64,000 nt of DNA from Hydra vulgaris (Eukaryota; Cnidaria; Hydrozoa; Anthoathecata; Hydridae): positions 46,825,001 through 46,889,000 of the forward strand of contig NC_088921.1 of assembly GCF_038396675.1 (NCBI RefSeq), in the 5' to 3' direction. The stretch's first letter is position 1, and every line of letters starts with the position of its first letter. The notes beneath the pieces are model-generated. The model was given only the letters and a program-made list of their open reading frames with translations, did not search any database and was not told the origin of the DNA. Of the stretch, positions 12,299-58,435 are shown in pieces. Position numbers and translations under genes: made by a program.

Positions 12299-16210
<3,912 letters not shown>

Positions 16211-17119: not shown

Positions 17120-18984
17120 TCAGAATTTTTTTGTCAAACTTTTCCAACAAGACAAGATGTTTTCTCTGATTAAGATGATTTGTTCTACTTTTTCTGGGTG
17201 TAAGTTGTGTCTGGATGATCGGGCGACATTTCCACCTGAGCTAAAAACTCTCTCTGATTTAGTTGAACTGGCTGGATTAGCTAAAATTTGTCTAGTTAAT
17301 AAAGAGAGTTCTGGCAATGTATTTGAATGCAATTTCCACCAATCAAGAATCGGAAAGTCTTTTTTGGCATCAGGGAGATATTCATACTGGCACATTTCGC
17401 TCAAAATAGGATTTAGTTTAGATGTTGGCTCTTGTGATTCAAGTCTGACGTTTAACTTGCGCTTTAGTTTTGAATTAGGGGACAAATCTGCTGAAAGGAC
17501 TCTGGCAACAGGTTGGCACTCAACATAATCCTTAACCTGTGAGGCAAACCATTCTTTTGTTGTTTGATATTTTTTGAAGAGCTTCAAGTGAAGTCCCTTT
17601 AAAGCAGGATTTAAGTTGTTTGCTGCAGCACTCAATAAGTTTCCTGTGTGACAAAGAGGAAATCTTTTCGCAATGCAGCTTTTCAAATTTTTTGCATACA
17701 AGACACCGTAGCCATTTTTTCCATCCGTCTCAATAAATTGATCAATTATGTCATGGATTAAATAAAGAGAATCGGCAACAGTGTTATTGTTGGAATAGAC
17801 TTAGCCGACCACGTTTCTGTAGCTTCTTTAAGTGGTGCCAAAATTTCTACTGCTCCCTCGATTGATTTTCACTGTGATGCACTGATAGTCTTTGAAGAAA
17901 AAATATCTTCATTTGCACATAAGCTGATAATTGCACTCTTTAGATGTAGGACAGAAGCCATGCAATCCAGTTCACTATTCCATCTTGTGTCAACAGATTG
18001 GCGTAACTGTCTACAATTGATTCTTTGCGCGTCTGATTCTGATTCAAGCAACTCAGCTGCAACTGTTGACTGGTGAGTTAAAGAAGCCAAATATTTGCAT
18101 GTTTGCAACGCATCATCCATTCCAGCAGTCATTCCAAATGAGCCTCGAACTGCACATTGCAAAATATGATTGTTGCACAAGTATTGGTCAAGGCGCTTTG
18201 ACAATTTACTGCAAGTTTCATGTTTCTTGCCTGATCGTTCACGCAGTACATTGGCAAATCAGCAGGCAAGTTTAGTTCTTCTAAGAAAGAATCCAGCTTT
18301 CCTTCAATTAAGACACCTGTTTGTCTGCCTGGGAACTGTTGGATATGGGGTGTCCAGTAATGTATGGGGTCCAGTGATGTATTTATGATAATGATGGGGT
18401 GTCCAGTGATGTCTCCAATTTTCGTCAATAGCATGAAAAGTCCAAAAGATGTAGCTGTCCTGAGCTCTAGAAGTCCAAAGGTCAGAAGTAAATGCAGCAC
18501 TTTTTAGATTTGGCGTAATCTCAGTTATTATGCTCTTCATTCCAGCTTGAACTTCTCTTGACCGAATTGAAAGCTTTCTTGAATATGTTGTTCTGTGATG
18601 AAGGCTCAGTTTAGGGTTTGCAATGTCAAACAATTTCTTGAAACCTCTTCCTTCGACTGCTGAAAAGGATGCCAGATCAGTGCAAAAGTAATCCAGCATT
18701 GCAGAGTCAAACTGTTTTTGAATGGAATTGTCTTTGCCATATTTGGACTTTGTTTCAAGCATTTCAACCACGGTTCGTTGTTTCTTCTTAGGAGGAGTAA
18801 GAAGAGAGTCGTCAGTTTTTTCAAAATACTGAACGTAATCTTGGCTGTGTTTTTTTTCGAGGTGACGATGAAGTCCGCTTGTGTTTCCATCTTTTGTTTT
18901 CAAAGACTTTTTGTACGCCTTGCATTCAGCACCGTCACTTGTTTTTTGAAAATATCTCCAGATTTTGTTTTTTCTTAGTGACAT
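17120..18984 (-). pseudogene. hAT/ZBED transposase, broken
   Basis: Starts at the ATG at 18984 (MSLRKNKIWRYFQKTSDGAE). The BED zinc finger is ECKAYKKSLKTKDGNTSGLH followed by RHLEKKH. The usual C-x2-C is C-x2-Y here, because the second cysteine codon is TAC, so the finger is damaged. The catalytic region has FTSDLWTSRAQDSY and YCVNDQARNMKLAV. The helical middle has QSVDTRWNSELDCMASVL. The C-terminal dimerisation domain (17701-17120) has PILDWWKLHSNTLPELSLLT, RQILANPASSTKSERVFSSG and a basic end. The frame is broken near 18345-18405 by a small minisatellite (GGGGTGTCCAGTGATGT units), near 18130, and by a stop after TISASQ at about 17870. Six or more kilobases separate it from the divergent hAT fragments near 8 kb. 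Confidence 0.88.
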
Positions 18985-19038
18985 TTTTGATCGTTGAAAT
19001 GAGGCAAGAATATTTCTTTTGAATAAAAATTTCTTTTT

Positions 19039-19093
19039 GAATTCAACTTGACACATATTGTTCAATATGAACAATATGTGTCAAGTTGAATTC
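19039..19093. repeat. Perfect palindrome, 26-nt arms, 3-nt loop
   Basis: Arms 19039-19064 and 19068-19093 (beginning GAATTCAACTTGACACATAT) with loop ATA. It lies at the 5' flank of the hAT transposase gene inside the element. One of seven similar structures in this window. Confidence 0.95.
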
Positions 19094-34800: not shown

Positions 34801-37800
34801 ACAGAAATAAACAGAAATTTCAGGTACTCTCATTCGGTGCACAAACCAACGTTTTGGCAAATATTTTACCAAAACCGATACCGACATCAGCTAGTAAAAA
34901 TTAATTTCATTAGAAAGAGATATTTAAAAATAAAATTTTACATTTAGTTGTCTTATTATAATCATATTATGTAAGGATTGATTACACATGTATTATAAAT
35001 TGAGATTTAATTCATAAGTTGTCAATATAAGCGAATGTTAACAACTCACAGATTTTCTCTGCAAAATAAGTTTTTTTTTTATAGGTATTTTGTGAAAATT
35101 CTCAAAATTTTTGTGATAATTCTCTAAAATAACTGTTTTTCTAAATCAGATAAAAATTTAAAATCTTACAAATGTTTCGGTATGTTTTTCCACCAAAATT
35201 TCGGTATTTGTTCAAATTGAAATTTCAGTTGATCACTAACAAGCAATTTCTAGTTTGATCTTTAGTGATCTATGATATGGCTTACAACTAATAAAAAGTT
35301 CTTTTTACTTTATAGTTCTCTTTTCAGTATATTACATTTTGTATTCTTACAAAAACATTTTTGACATTTAAGTTTTTTAACAAATTAGTTTTTATTAAAC
35401 AAAGCTAATATAAGCATTAAAACATTATCAAACATCTGAGATATTCTTGATTACAAAAAATGCATTGATATTTCCAGATTTTTTCTGGGCATTTTTCTCC
35501 GAACAAAACTCTAAGTTTATTTGAATCATGTTTTACATTTTCTTTAGAATGATAATCTTTCATCTTCACCAATGTTTATATAATATTATGAAAAATCCTC
35601 AAGATTAAAGATCAATTTACCTCTTGATGATTTTTTAATAAATATTCACAATTAATTTAAAGTACTAATTTAAAAATAGTAAGCTTCCATTTAAATCCCA
35701 GGCCTTGTTGTGAGTTTTGTAATGTGTAATTAAAACCCTAATAAATGTAACTTTAACACAGCTTTGATATTTACATAGTTAAAATTGCGTCATTAGCATA
35801 TCTTGTGTTGTAATTAAATTTAATTTTAAACCAGGTTAAAAATCATTTCAACTAATAATAAAAATTTCTGATAAAATCTAAATTCGGTATTTGAAAAAGA
35901 TTATATTTCCTTATAATTTTTTTCTTAAAACAATCTTATTCTTAACATTTTGTTTCTTTATCATAAAAAAACATTTAACTACTTTATTTAATATATTTAA
36001 TATTTAAAATAATATTTTTAATAAAGATTATAATGTAATATTTAATATAATATTTTTATTAAAGATTATAAACAATTTATAGATATATTTTAGTTACCAA
36101 TAAGATGTTCATTAGTGTAATATGTTCATAAGAAAATTACGTCAAAATAACTTAATAGGAATTAATAAGAAACAAAAAATTTTAAATGCAATTGTGTATA
36201 TTTTGTGAGGTCCATAAATTACATCACACCTTTTTTTACCGTTTTCTACCCATTCACTCCTCATCTCAACATCATTACTCTATAATAACAAGTCCAGTAC
36301 TTTAGTCATTACAAAACCACCAACTGCTGCCCCCATCCCCTCCTCTTTTTTTTTCCCCCTCTTTAAGCATGACATAAGTCATGGACAATCCCTTAAAGAA
36401 ACAGATGGTATGTAACATCAGTTTCTTTAACAAAAAAATGTTAAATTTATTTTTTCATAACTTAATTTCCAAACAAACATTACTTAAAGATATTAAAAGG
36501 TAATTTAAATATTCCAAAATTAAAAAGTTTTTGCTCAAAAATAAAATTGTCCACACTAGTTAATAATTACACATTAGAGAAAATTAAACTCTTTATAAAC
36601 CATTTCATGTTTTGTTTAAATATAAATTTATACTTTATTTATTAGTCTTTTTTTTTTTGTTTTTTTTTTTATCTTGTATAGTAACTAAGTCAAAATTTCA
36701 GTAAAATTATTTGGCATTGATTAGAAAAATATACATAAAAAAAGAGGTTGATTTTTATAATTTACGATTTGGCTTTTTTTAATTTAAAATTAATAGAATT
36801 AACCTGGTAATTAGATAATATTTAAATAATTAACTATTTAAAAACTGTTTTTAAATTTATAAAAGTATTTGGTATTTATAACATTTATTTACATTATTTA
36901 TAAATGACTAATAGTTAGTTGTCCTCTAGGGGATGTTGCTTGATCAGTATTATTTTTATTTTTTATTATTAGGAATTGTCACTTTTGATCTGTTAACTAT
37001 ATTACACCTAAGTATACCATTAAATATTCAAAATTTTTAGTATACAAAGCACCTGAAAAGAGACCAAAAGAGAATCAAAATTACAGAAGCAGCACAGAGT
37101 GATCAATATGGAAAACAGTTAGTTCATCGTGTTGTCGAAGTACAAGCCATACTTAGTGATATGTCAGATTCTGTCCGACCTGATTTTTTAAATGGTGTTA
37201 ACAACGCATGTAAATTAACGAAAGATGATTTTGATAATCTTGATGTGTTCTATGAACTTGTTAATCCAAGTATTGATCCTTCTATTGAATTATCAAAAGT
37301 TAATAAATTATCAGTACGAGTTAAAGAAGCCACTGAACATTTGATAAAGGTTGTTGAAGGTAAAGAACTTCCGGCATTAGATAATGGTACAACTTACAAA
37401 GAACTGCAAGCACTTATATCACGTATTAAGTTAAGTGGATACTTTGAAAATGATAAAGTGAATGGTTCGGATGAAAATGTAAATCATATAGTTCATGAGT
37501 TAGCTGATTCTGAGCTACATGATGAAGATCATGAGGATCATGAAGACCATGAAAAAATTGATCACAAAGAAGCAGAAAATGAAGAAGAGGAAGTAATTAA
37601 GTTTGTAGCAGTGTTATAATTAAAAAGTTTTATGTACTGTTTAATTTTTTTATACTTTTAGGTTTATTTTATTATATAGTTAAAGAGATCCCTAAGTGCC
37701 AAGATCAGTGTTTATATCATAAATAACTATAAAAAAATAAGTTTCATGTTAATTAAACTTTCCAGAACAAGTTATTTAAAGTATAAATTATTAAGCAAAA

Positions 37801-43094: not shown

Positions 43095-43896
43095 ATACCA
43101 TTTCTTGCTTTTTAATATAACTTTGTCTTTCAATTATACCATCCATCAAATTGACACCTCCCATGTGATGGTTGCACTCTTATTACAAATGGAAAGCTAA
43201 TGACTATTTTTTTTTTTTTTGTCGAAACGGTAAAATGGTTGTCAATGGTAGCTGGCCTGCATATGTGGACAACAGACAACTGCTTTATTGTTCTTCCAGA
43301 CCAAGGAGCTTATTTCTATTCCATTTACTTCTCCAACAAACTCATGGGATGTTCCTCGAGCATCTTTTTTAATTATTTTTTCTGTCGGAAATTTGCAATC
43401 AGGTATTCTATTGTGACGTACAGTACCTAAGCTTAAAATACCTTTTTTAGCTAGATATGCGAATAGAGTTAAAGATGTATAGTAATTATCAAAGTATAGT
43501 CTGTAGATTTGATTTGCTGGGATAATGGTAGATAATCTTTTCACAACATTTGCAGAAGCTCCAACATCTGGTTGATCTATTTCTGCTTTCTTGTTTTCTT
43601 GACCAGAATAAACTTCAAATTTATAAGCAAACCCACTAACTCCACAAATTACAAATAATTTAAAACCCCACTTGAATGGTTTCATTGGAATATACTGCTT
43701 CAAAAAATGACTAACTTTTGTGGAACATAACTGTTCGTCTACTGACAAATAACCATCCAAAGGAACCATAGAACTTTCTAAGTTGAGATGATCAATAAGT
43801 AGTCTAATTTTATGTAGTCCATGTGAAAGATTTCCTTGAGGTAAATACTTAGTGTTATCATTGGAATGAATAAACTGGCGAATTTTCTCAAATCTA

Positions 43897-44056
43897 TTAA
43901 CTGTAATACAATTTTTAAAACTGCTAATTTCAAACTCTGGGGACCAATATTAACTGTAATACAATTTTTAAAACTGCTAATTTCAAACTCTGGGGACCAA
44001 TATTAACTGTAATACAATTTTTAAAACTGCTAATTTCAAACTCTGGGGACCAATAT
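43897..44056. repeat. 53-bp unit, three tandem copies
   Basis: The unit containing AACTGTAATACAATTTTTAA and CTCTGGGGACCAATAT repeats with a 53-bp period three times, almost without differences. 53 is not a multiple of 3, so it disrupts the transposase frame. The identity of the copies indicates a recent event. Confidence 0.93.
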
Positions 44057-54260: not shown

Positions 54261-55241
54261 ATAAAGTATTTATGTATTAAAAAATATTATAATACTTTTA
54301 AATATTTTATATGATGGAAATCAACTTGAATTGTAAATGGTTAAAATAAATAAAAGTTCAATTTCTTTTTTTTATCTTAATATATTTATAATATTATCTT
54401 AATTGATTTACCCGTCTTTTTGGAAATTAATAACGCGCATAAATGTCAGCAAATAAAATCGTTAAATGTTCATCAACGCCATATAAAACTAAACTCATTG
54501 CAAACTCATTTCATGGAACAAAGAGTAACAGCTAAAACAATTTGTGAAGAGTTGAAGGTATTGAATTAGCGTCGAGTTAATAGAAGAAAAAATATAAATA
54601 AAGAAAATTGAAGAGACCTGGAGCTTTTCTTAAAACAATTAGTATGAAGAGAAATGCTTTCTATGCATATAATTATAAAAAAAAATAAAAGAAAGTTTTG
54701 ATCTTGATCTGGATGTTCTTGCAAGAAAATATTCGTGTGTAATACCATGGTACCTACTAAATAAAGAATTTCAATATCATTGACTTTATTGACATTAATA
54801 AAGAAAAGTTTCATGTATATAAAAAAAAAATCCTGGTTTTTATGATTGTACTTGCACAACAAGAAGAAGCAAAACGTTGAAAAACCGACACACAAATCCT
54901 TCTTGATCTACTAAAATTTATTGAACAGTATAAGTTAAAAAATTCTGTCCACAGCATTGTAATATTGCTAAAATTTTAAATTAAAAAAAAATTTTAACAA
55001 TTTTTATCAGAGTCGCTAGTTGCAAAAGGAGCTTCTCCAATGGCCAAAAAAATTTTGGAAGGGGGCTGAAACGGAAATTAAAGGGAAATTTAATTTCCGT
55101 TTCAGGAAACGGAATTTAAAGGGGAAAGTTTAAACGGAAACAAAGAGGAAAGGCAGCCAGACTCAGAATTTGAATGAAAAAAAAAGGAAATTTTGTGAAA
55201 GTTGGGGACTATTGCCCCTCCGCCTCCTTCTTACGCCAGTG
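54261..55241. other. Intergenic, nothing recognised
   Basis: AT-rich. A G/A-rich patch with partial inverted and direct repeats of GGAAATTAAAGGGAAATTTA-type words lies at 55075-55150. No gene. The last 5 bp (CAGTG, 55237-55241) are the left copy of the Transib target duplication. Confidence 0.45.
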
Positions 55242-55280
55242 CACAGTGGGCCGGATATTAGACTTATGGTGGACAAAATC
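55242..55280 (+). repeat. Transib left terminus, RSS-like with 23-bp spacer
   Basis: Heptamer CACAGTG (55242-55248), identical to the V(D)J recombination-signal heptamer, then 23 bp, then GACAAAATC (55272-55280). If the A-rich block is read one base later as ACAAAATCA, the spacer is 24. It lies beyond the 3' end of the transposase gene. Confidence 0.85.
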
Positions 55281-55688
55281 ATTTTGATAATTTTTTTTTT
55301 ACTAAAGTCCTTTAAATGTCTAAATAAACACATAATAATAAAAAATATTCGTTTTTACTATAAATTTTAGTTAAATTATTGAATATACTGAAAATAATAG
55401 AAAAAACTTTAAAAAACGCGGGTTTGTAATTTTTTATATTTGAGTTCTCATAAAATGCTTATGAGGTTTTAATTATATTTTATGATGAAATATAAATTCT
55501 CTAGATTAATTATGGTAGTAATTAGTAAAATTCTAGTCTAAAGAATTACATTTTTTAATTTTTAAATCTATTACCCCCAAATTCTGAATAACATTATTTT
55601 AAGTTTTTTTGTACTATAGAGAAAAAAGGCTACTTGTAGGAAAAAGAAAACAAAGCTTGTACTAATTTATATATTACAGATCATTCAA

Positions 55689-57722
55689 TTACGGAGCTGA
55701 TTCTTTCAACAACTCAAGAACTTCACTGGGAAATTTATGCAAACTTTGATTGTTATTTAACTTTAGTTTTCTAAGAGATGTTATAACGGGATCACTGGAT
55801 ACAAGAAGCCTATTAATCAAATCTTGGTTTGTATCTTTTCTTGAAGTCTTTCTGCTAAAATGTTCCCGAAAGTTCTTGAAGTCTTTATTTCGCGCCTCAA
55901 GGGCATCTTTAGACATTATTCCGATTGGTAGAAATTGTCTTTCAATTATAGCATGACCATGAACCAAAATTTTGTGGACAGATTGTGACATATAGTACCA
56001 TGAATAATTGGATATATAAAGTTTTAGAGCGGTTATGCAAAAAACTTTAAACTTTATAGTATCTATTTCATATCCTGATGACAAAGTGACTAAAATAATA
56101 TAAAAATAATATATAAGAGTTTCATCAACTTTTAATATCTCGGCGGTTAATTTATAGTTTGCAAAAGCTCAGCGGGAAGTATTTCCGTCGTTACTAGTAC
56201 CTTAAAAATTAGAAAATTATATCTTATATTTAATATATTGTATGGATATATAATATATATTTTATATAATACAAAATTTGACTTACCCGAACCTCCACTT
56301 TTCGGAAAATCCACAACCAATCCTAATTGGTTCATAAAATCGGTCTGAATTCGGCACTTTACTTGCTCTACCGCTAATTTATCAGCTACGGCTCTAGCCT
56401 GCCATTTTCCGGTTTCCTTTTTATATCCAACATGAAGTATTAGTTCAAAAAAGTTTATCCAAGCGTGTAAACTAGATAAACCATATTTAAACTCTAAATT
56501 ATTGGTGTCTAAATTCATAACTTTCTCCAAGTTATTAATGTTTTTTGGAGATAAACCACAAACTGGACAACACTGTGTCGAGTTTGCCATAGTTGATAAA
56601 ATTGTTTGAATTTTACCATCTACCATGGTCAGCTCAATAAAACATTTTACAGCTAATTCTTTCCCAGCAAAAGTAATGTTAATAACATCACAGTTCTCAA
56701 TTTCGGAATCAATAGTTTTTTTTTCTTCTTCCACAACATTCTTAGTTTCCTTTTGAAAAGAAAATCTAACGGGTCGACAATATGCAGTTGATGACGGCTT
56801 TTCGTTTCTCCACACTACTACGTTTTTATTATTATAAAATCCGCTGAGTTCTAATAGTACTATGCAAGTCATAAATAAGCACTCTTCATTTTTTAGATTT
56901 CGTTCAATGTTTTCATTATGGCTAACCTGCTTGTAAACGCTTTGCCCTGTAGCACCATCAAACCCAGCTTTGCATCTAAATGTCAGTTTAGTTAGTTCTT
57001 CTAACATTGTTATTAGCACAGGAGCTTGTGCGTCACACAGTCTTTCAAGAGTGTGCATAAGAAGGTCTTTTAGCGGTATGTTTACGGCATACTCATCTAC
57101 ATAAACGTTTTTGGGATAACATTTAGATTTTGAAAACCGTATATCATTATATAAAGGATAAATGTGGCGGCCTTTTTCTTCTGCGCCATTTCGTAAAAGC
57201 TGGTATGTTGATTTTGATAAACCACCATCAACAACCAATGCTAGACCTTCATCCGGTGTGTACTTCATAAGATTTTTAACTGGTTTTTCATCTGAAATTT
57301 CGGCAATTTTTCTAGCAGTCTCGTACTTAAACTCATTTCTAAATTTTAATTTTGTTGCATGAAGTAATTCAGAGCCAGATAAACTGTTAATAACATTGTT
57401 AAGCTTTCTCTTTTTTTTTTTTGTTGCATGAGTTTTTAAAAGAGCAACAAGGTCTTCCAACGTCATTAACTGTAGAATTTAGAATGTACGTAAACTAAAA
57501 ATCTTGAGCTAACCATTTTTCATTGCTTTTTTCAAAGTAATTTGCATCATTATTTGCAGCTATCCACTTTTTACGATATACTTTTATAAAGTTTTTACAC
57601 TCACAATCGTTTAGTGTAATATCTACTGAAGATAGGAGAGTTAATACTGATGAAAAAAATGATTTATCATTAGGAAGTAGTTTGTTTTGTCTTATAAGTG
57701 TGTGAATCTCACCAATTTTCAT
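55689..57722 (-). pseudogene. Transib transposase (RAG1 core homologue), near-intact
   Basis: The cut-and-paste recombinase of the element and a homologue of the RAG1 core. From the N-terminus: MKIGEIHTLIRQNKLLPND (possible start 57722, after a TTTTAG that could be an acceptor), up to NEKWLAQDF-stop near 57495. The frame then resumes at MTLEDLVALLKTHATKKKKR (57466). Core motifs: EGLALVVDGGLSK, GFDGATGQSVYKQ (first catalytic D, codon 56957-56959), CRPVRFSFQKETK, IELTMVDGKIQ (second D, 56618-56620), CCPVCGLSP 17 residues later (zinc CxxC), YGLSSLHAWINFFE and LGLVVDFPKSGGSG. An 86-nt GT-AG intron (56286-56201) joins to TSNDGNTSR, then a TGA (56171-56169), then AFANYKLTAEILKVDE, SSGYEID, SQSVHKILVHG and LEARNKDFKNFREHFSRK (catalytic E, 55896-55898). 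The stop is just before 55689. All three acids and the spacing seen in RAG1 are kept. Only the TGA and the N-terminal junction break it. Confidence 0.92.
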
Positions 57723-58402
57723 ATTATAACTAAAATAAAAAACAAAAAAAGTATTATTCAAACAGTACAATGTGCATTGAATTGTATTGGAGAAAAATAA
57801 CATCTGTTATTGTTTGGTTGAATAAAAAACATGACGTTTCAAATAAGTATTTCGATTTCAAGCGAATAATACGATTTGAAACTCGTATTTTTAAAGTATC
57901 AAATAAACTCAAAATGGTAAATAATGGGCGATGTATACAGTTCTAATAGGTTATAGACATGTAGCATTTACTAGCTCAAGCACTCGATATAGGTTCTCGT
58001 AGGTTCCCTAACTTATCTGACACTTTTTGTACGAAATAAAAGTATTAAATATTATAAACTTACCTTGTTATAATAAAGCCAGTTTACAAATGTTTTATAA
58101 ACAATGACTTTTTCTATTTATTTTTTTCATAAAGCTATACAATTTAATAGTTAAAATAAATAAACTAATTGCGCATACACGTATTTTTTTTAAAGTTACT
58201 GTTAACAAAAGATATACACAAAAATAAAAAAAACTCGCGCTTTTTTAAAAAAATAAATAAAATTATTATACATGGAACCGCAATTGATTTTTGTGGTTTT
58301 GAAAGATACTATTAAACTCAAACAAATGTTTTAATTAGTCAGTAGAGTATTGCGATTATGTTTTATAATATGATTTTTGAAATAATAAACTTTCATTTTT
58401 GA

Positions 58403-58430
58403 GGTTTTGTCCACCACCTGGCCCACTGTG
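58403..58430 (-). repeat. Transib right terminus, RSS-like with 12-bp spacer
   Basis: Read inward on the minus strand: heptamer CACAGTG (58430-58424), then 12 bp (58423-58412), then GACAAAACC (58411-58403). With the one-base shift (ACAAAACCT) the spacer is 13. It lies upstream of the transposase gene. Confidence 0.85.
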
Positions 58431-58435
58431 CAGTG

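Follow-up and report, generated by a model that had tools for sequence, protein, structure and literature searches.

Transib transposons with unequal, 12/23-like ends in the cnidarian Hydra vulgaris

Introduction

Transib transposons with one short and one long end, in the manner of the 12RSS/23RSS pairs of V(D)J recombination, have been published for insects. The available text of PMC8355894, citing Kapitonov and Jurka 2005, places ends that are 12/23-like to within 1 bp in Transib5 of Drosophila melanogaster and in Transib2, N1, N2 and N3 of Anopheles gambiae, and it describes such Transibs as the only known 12/23-asymmetric transposition besides V(D)J recombination. According to part of PMC9435367, the Transibs of subgroup I all have asymmetric ends and subgroup II contains both kinds; the same part names two Hydra Transibs, HvuTransib-7_HMp and HvuTransib-9_HMp. 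In strain AEP, an excerpt of PMC12220107 counts CMC-Transib among 14 putatively active groups of elements, all of them expressed, with CMC-Transib outside the top fifth. The accessible sections of PMC8355894 and PMC8289069 treat the origin of the 12/23 rule as unsettled.

The window that we analysed, a stretch of 64,000 nucleotides of Hydra vulgaris DNA, contains an element of this already known kind, given that 12/23-like Transibs have been published for insects. Like Transib5, Transib2 and N1 to N3, it has a heptamer followed by a nonamer-like block, with spacers that deviate by at most 1 bp from 12 and 23; unlike them it has a cnidarian host and a GACAAAA block, and its asymmetry is documented over numerous copies and in several families, of which some are 12/21. 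The evidence that copies give for 12/23-type asymmetry is unusually strong here. HvuTransib-7_HMp and HvuTransib-9_HMp come from the same host group as the family described here (family A), a comparison made by name only, and family A may already be catalogued in Repbase.

The element resembles HzTransib of Helicoverpa zea (PDB 6pqn) in transposase homology, in its DDE residues and in predicted fold. This closeness suggests that the Hydra families probably belong to subgroup II. Part of PMC8289069 describes the ends of HzTransib, unlike those found here, as symmetric and as bearing scant or no resemblance to the RSS nonamer. With the vertebrate RAG1/2 system the element shares CACAGTG, an A-rich block that at one of the two ends is displaced inwards by roughly a helical turn, and a RAG1-like fold; it differs from that system in that it has no frame of RAG2 length, in that its block is not the nonamer, and in that enforced pairing is here a hypothesis. 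ProtoRAG of amphioxus and AanRAGL of Aureococcus are alike in having asymmetric bipartite ends that start with CAC and 5-bp duplications, but they carry RAG2L and have spacers of 27/31 and 4/13 (PMC8289069 and PMC9435367, both in part).

The element and its ends

The element, a member of family A, occupies positions 55242 to 58430 (3189 bp), with its transposase gene on the minus strand, and this copy is defective. It is flanked by a perfect 5-bp target-site duplication, CAGTG, at 55237 to 55241 and again at 58431 to 58435. The left end, 3' of the transposase gene, reads on the plus strand as the heptamer CACAGTG (55242 to 55248), a spacer of 23 bp (55249 to 55271) and the inner block GACAAAATC (55272 to 55280). 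The right end lies 5' of the gene and reads on the minus strand as CACAGTG (58424 to 58430), a spacer of 12 bp (58412 to 58423) and the inner block GACAAAACC (58403 to 58411). Both ends open with CACAGTGGGCC, and GACAAAA follows past 23 bp on the left and 12 bp on the right. CACAGTG is the exact V(D)J heptamer. Direct reading and a script agreed on the heptamers, the blocks and the duplication, all of which had been claimed in a preliminary description of this DNA. The pattern CACAGTGN{4,34}GGACAAAA matches the two element ends and nothing else in the window, whose GC content is 27%, and it has no match in 100 shuffles of the window.

The inner block is GACAAAA and not the RSS nonamer. The V(D)J nonamer ACAAAAACC was not found at 12 or 23 bp from the heptamer, the best match in the 12/23 register being 6 of 9. 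Alignment on GACAAAA gives spacers of 12 and 23 with 4 to 6 of 9 bases matching ACAAAAACC, and alignment on ACAAAA gives 13 and 24 with 6 to 7 of 9. The preliminary description had given 6 of 9 for the first register, which is right for the right end and one too many for the left end of the window copy (5 of 9); it had given 7 of 9 after a one-base shift for the right end only, a limit that was wrong because both ends reach this value. The difference of 11 bp between the ends is independent of the register; in families C and D, described below, the difference is 9 bp.

The transposase gene

The gene lies in three pieces on the minus strand. An N-terminal open frame (57495 to 57806) terminates at an in-frame stop beyond which the relative P0001, a 96% match, continues. 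The main frame (56147 to 57478) holds the first and second acidic residues of the DDE triad (in GFDGATG and TMVDGK) and matches HzTransib 6pqn with an E value of 4.8e-47; the C-terminal frame (55689 to 56168) holds the third (in EARNKDF) and matches HzTransib at 2.8e-38. These matches bear out the Transib identity first proposed. The main frame is in a different reading frame from the N-terminal part, with the switch at an A-run, and the C-terminal frame has a stop near its start, both read by eye; by eye, too, a short intron probably separates the main and C-terminal frames. Compared with P0001 and P0002, the gene of the window copy is broken, by an early stop, a frame change at the A-run and a stop close to the beginning of the last exon, the kinds of lesion being judged by eye. 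The broken copy is 96-97% identical to P0001, and 67% and 83% identical to P0002 over two main stretches.

The triad (GFDGA, TMVDGK, EARNKDF) aligns with D126, D225 and E436 of HzTransib, numbered as in the accessible part of PMC6941560; by our own count the PDB chain numbering is lower by 17. We found 13 relative proteins, of which the named ones are from Hydra vulgaris, and built a profile from 12 of them, excluding P0013, which is named as piggyBac-derived. This profile found HzTransib at 4.8e-146, amphioxus RAG1L at 1.5e-9 and RAG1 at 4e-6. An AlphaFold model of P0002 (mean pLDDT 69.7) has HzTransib as its closest solved fold and RAG1 as its second. Pfam gave nothing near the cut-off for the main frame, RAG1 (PF12940) below the cut-off for the C-terminal frame (E 0.02; 13.5 bits against 25) and no match at 0.01 for P0002 and P0004. 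On homology to the Transib/RAG1 core, the DDE triad and predicted fold, the element belongs to the Transib superfamily.

The N-terminal region carries a GRP motif in nine of the ten relatives that reach it, and GRKP in the tenth. In the profile match it is collinear with the nonamer-binding domain of RAG1, at about 5 bits, a score that is insignificant alone; a search for the RAG1 chain with the 60-residue N-terminal piece gave no match, and the confidence of the P0002 model is low in this region. Judged by frame length, the element has no RAG2-like second gene: besides the transposase pieces, no stop-to-stop frame of more than 78 amino acids overlaps it. Its content is one gene in 3.2 kb, with no RAG1L/RAG2L pair.

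Copies of family A

We scored and listed 40 matches to the left end and 40 to the right end, and paired them within 20 kb. This gave 18 pairs, the other 22 of the 40 left ends having no listed partner; two of the 18 were dropped for lack of a locus, and the remaining 16 copies, among them the one in the window, were read. In 15 of these the left spacer is 23 bp and in one it is 28 bp; the right spacer is 12 bp in 15 and 16 bp in one. The 5-bp duplications are identical in 11 copies and have one mismatch in five, and a few family-A copies have point changes in the heptamer. The left inner block reads GACAAAATT in 14 of the 16.

With a class of 12 ± 1 and 23 ± 1 bp for the spacers, family A falls within it and is fixed; alignment of the block on ACAAAA would give 13/24. 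The preliminary description had called for a survey of copies. The spacer difference and the A-rich block both came through it, no paired copy having equal spacers, and the suggestion of 12/23-like ends in an animal outside the vertebrates is upheld in a cnidarian. We consider it probable that the element is a Hydra Transib whose unequal 12/23 ends are fixed in family A.

In the left half the copies are 0.6-1.6% away from the column majority. In the right half 13 of the 16 are 0.6-1.4% away, and three, which have other sequence in between, are not comparable. Such closeness to the majority suggests that family A moved recently, and the window copy would then be a defective member of a recently active cut-and-paste transposon.

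Other families in the genome

The pattern CACAGTGGGCCN{2,30}GTGGACAAAA has 711 matches in the genome and its reversed control has none. Among the first 100 matches the spacer is 12 bp in 80, 23 in 17, 21 in two (both ends of the family-A type) and 11 in one. This pattern requires GTGGACAAAA and so passes over the 21-ends that read CTGGACAAAA. A looser pattern that takes both has 1794 matches, against 12 for its control. Of its first 100 matches one overlapping row was removed, and the remaining 99 have spacers of 12 bp (43), 21 (44), 23 (5), 11 (4) and 9, 14 and 22 (one each), and of the 8-38 bp that were admitted, the lengths 15-20 and everything beyond 23 are unrepresented.

The ends sort into families A, A' and B, which are 12/23, and C, D and E, which are 12/21. 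The family-B copy that we read is 2999 bp long, with spacers of 23 and 12 and a GGCTG duplication on both sides, and a copy of family B from this genome is a 97-98% match to H. vulgaris P0002. One copy of family C (spacers 12 and 21, CAGGG on both sides) and one of family D (1960 bp, spacers 12 and 21, ACGCG on both sides) were also read; in another family-D copy, L093/L097, the partner end was not found. A fifth pair type, E, seen in the list only, has a 12-end reading GTGACTG with a 21-end reading AATTCACTTTTACTG or a near variant. All nine of the end types compared retain GACAAAA while their spacers differ, and in the A/B and C/D comparisons the spacers change in sequence but keep their length.

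For a Transib that carries a transposase gene, family C is present in unusually large numbers. It has 372 exact ends with a 21-bp spacer, and it departs in this from the one or a few copies that part of PMC4411706 gives as typical of autonomous Transibs. Its copies, L063 and L091 among them, are mostly 97-99% alike over 1.5 kb and those that are paired are mostly about 3.36 kb long; the copy that was read contains one frame change and is a 98-99% match to P0004.

A spacer of 11 bp marks a further end type (GGCCAGCTATG), which was seen at L099, where no other end appeared in the 1.7 kb that was followed, and also at G000:C1:35055734 and C1:35055803, in the same direction and 69 bp apart.

Pairing of short and long ends

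We took two ends as a facing pair if they lay within 15 kb, a distance at which a few pairs may join unrelated ends; the counts cover the places listed (the first 100 per listing) and thus part of the genome. Exact long ends number 52 in families A and A' together and 30 in family B, and among these 82 there is no long/long facing pair. Within the stretch that has listed 12-ends (100 of 146), 22 of 39 family-A long ends and 15 of 18 family-B long ends face an exact 12-end. For family C, 57 of the 21-ends were compared with the 100 listed ends, 43 of the 100 listed family-C ends being outside the compared range and excluded; the facing pairs were 48 of 12/21, six of 12/23 and none of like with like. 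The 99 ends of the looser list contain 32 facing 12/21 pairs and a single 12/12 pair (L084). Among the places listed, nearly all facing pairs combine a short with a long end. No exact partner was found for 63 of the 100 12-ends or for 34 of the 99 ends of the looser list; such ends could owe their state to mutation, truncation or unlisted partners.

The 12/12 pair at L084:1211-1526 is a palindrome of 316 bp bounded on both sides by a 12-type end, and its flanks, agatc and gatct, form inverted and not direct repeats. Its arm is similar to the 12-end of family D, and at full length it matches only itself among 40 candidates scored. It is possibly an aberrant product. The 100 listed 12-ends contain one facing 12/12 pair, C9:32696258-32704692, which we judged from positions alone to be a nested insertion, since a 23-end lies just past it, and set aside.

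Because the copies of a family inherit their ends together, the lack of like/like pairs does not by itself establish a rule, and for that reason the case for a 12/23-type pairing rule in Hydra Transibs is suggestive only.

Long ends that are neighbours in the same direction, and so do not face each other, were seen twice, on C6 and on C1; in the C6 case two family-A' 23-ends, G000:C6:6759843 and C6:6761666, are 1.8 kb apart. L087 has 539 bp between two ends with spacers of 23 and 18 and no matching duplication, which makes it uninformative on pairing, and it was rejected.

Relation of the long end to the short end

The long spacer of family B (23 bp) consists of the short spacer of family A (12 bp) interrupted after its position 8 by 11 further bases; all 12 of the 12 bases agree. 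Agreement of this degree was reached by 5e-5 of shuffles, a figure that overstates the significance because the whole long spacer was mixed, including the GGCC that is common to all ends. Within family B itself the long and the short spacer agree at 11 of 12 bases, and within families A, C and D the agreement is 10, 10 and 9 of 12 with inserts of 11, 9 and 9 bp. These observations suggest that the two ends may be versions of a single end, the long one carrying an insert of roughly a helical turn.

A possible pairing rule and its alternatives

One explanation of the unequal ends is that they are used as a pair. A dimer of the RAG1-like DDE transposase would nick beside CAC and leave hairpins on the flanks, nick-hairpin cleavage being reported for HzTransib and RAG in part of PMC6941560. 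The GRP-bearing N-terminal region, placed like the nonamer-binding domain of RAG1, would hold GACAAAA by means of a flexible linker. Synapsis would favour one short and one long end, as under the 12/23 rule but without RAG2, and it is proposed that this preference would follow from the spacing of the blocks, which lie about one helical turn apart between the two ends. We give a preference for mixed short/long pairs somewhat less than an even chance, and we advance only tentatively, as something that falls a little short of probable, the fuller claim that Hydra Transib transposases enforce RAG2-independent pairing of a short (12) with a long (21-23) end through a domain like the nonamer-binding domain of RAG1. 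Several findings count against this explanation: the difference is 9 bp in families C, D and E, variant spacers of 28, 16 and 21 occur, there is one 12/12 palindrome, many ends have no exact partner, the inner block differs from the RSS nonamer, and the N-terminal similarity to the nonamer-binding domain of RAG1 is insignificant alone. The available part of PMC7204232 predicts that unequal ends should matter rather little to invertebrate RAGL enzymes, which also counts against it.

If such an enforced rule is real, the 12/23 rule would have been present already in a RAG1-type transposase and inherited by V(D)J recombination. On this reading one insertion, roughly a helical turn in length, would have turned the short end into the long one, a step that the comparison of A with B still shows. 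A Hydra genome with several 12/23 or 12/21 Transib families offers a direct, RAG2-free test system for the origin of the 12/23 rule.

Alternatively, the unequal spacers may be real and inherited without being required, each end being read singly through its heptamer and nearby bases, and spacer length being a neutral or regulatory relic that arose, for example, because the 12-end is close to the promoter. This is a serious possibility, if somewhat short of an even one. It is in agreement with the co-inheritance of end types within families, with the position of the 12-end 5' of the transposase gene in families A, B, C and, apparently, D (by eye), with a difference of 11 bp in some families and 9 bp in others, and with the symmetric ends that most Transib families, HzTransib included, have according to the accessible text of PMC8289069. 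It sits less well with the retention of spacer length while spacer sequence changes (A/B, C/D), with the concentration of nearly all listed ends in two length classes, and with the want of any like/like family among the matches listed.

The caution that the 11-bp difference could be a private indel of the window copy did not survive: the family-A spacers do differ by a simple 11-bp block, but each spacer length is common to 15 of 16 copies and a like asymmetry recurs in other families, leaving this reading highly improbable. Equally hard to credit is an A-rich block that is mere AT-rich background, with 12/23 spacing by chance, for which the 27% GC of the window speaks and against which stand the control counts (0 against 711 and 12 against 1794), the empty shuffles and the presence of GACAAAA in nine end types with differing spacers.

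Other features of the window

The window also holds pieces of a hAT-like transposon with a BED zinc finger and a hAT dimerisation domain (17120-19080, minus strand) and a transposase fragment with a DDE_Tnp_1_7 domain (43242-43949, minus strand; E 2.4e-34), which we take to be probably of the piggyBac type. A frame with a Caprin-1 dimerisation domain (37041-37619, plus strand; E 6.3e-24) is probably an exon of a host gene, and a long Ile-Tyr open frame at 15256-15867 (plus strand) comes from a simple repeat.
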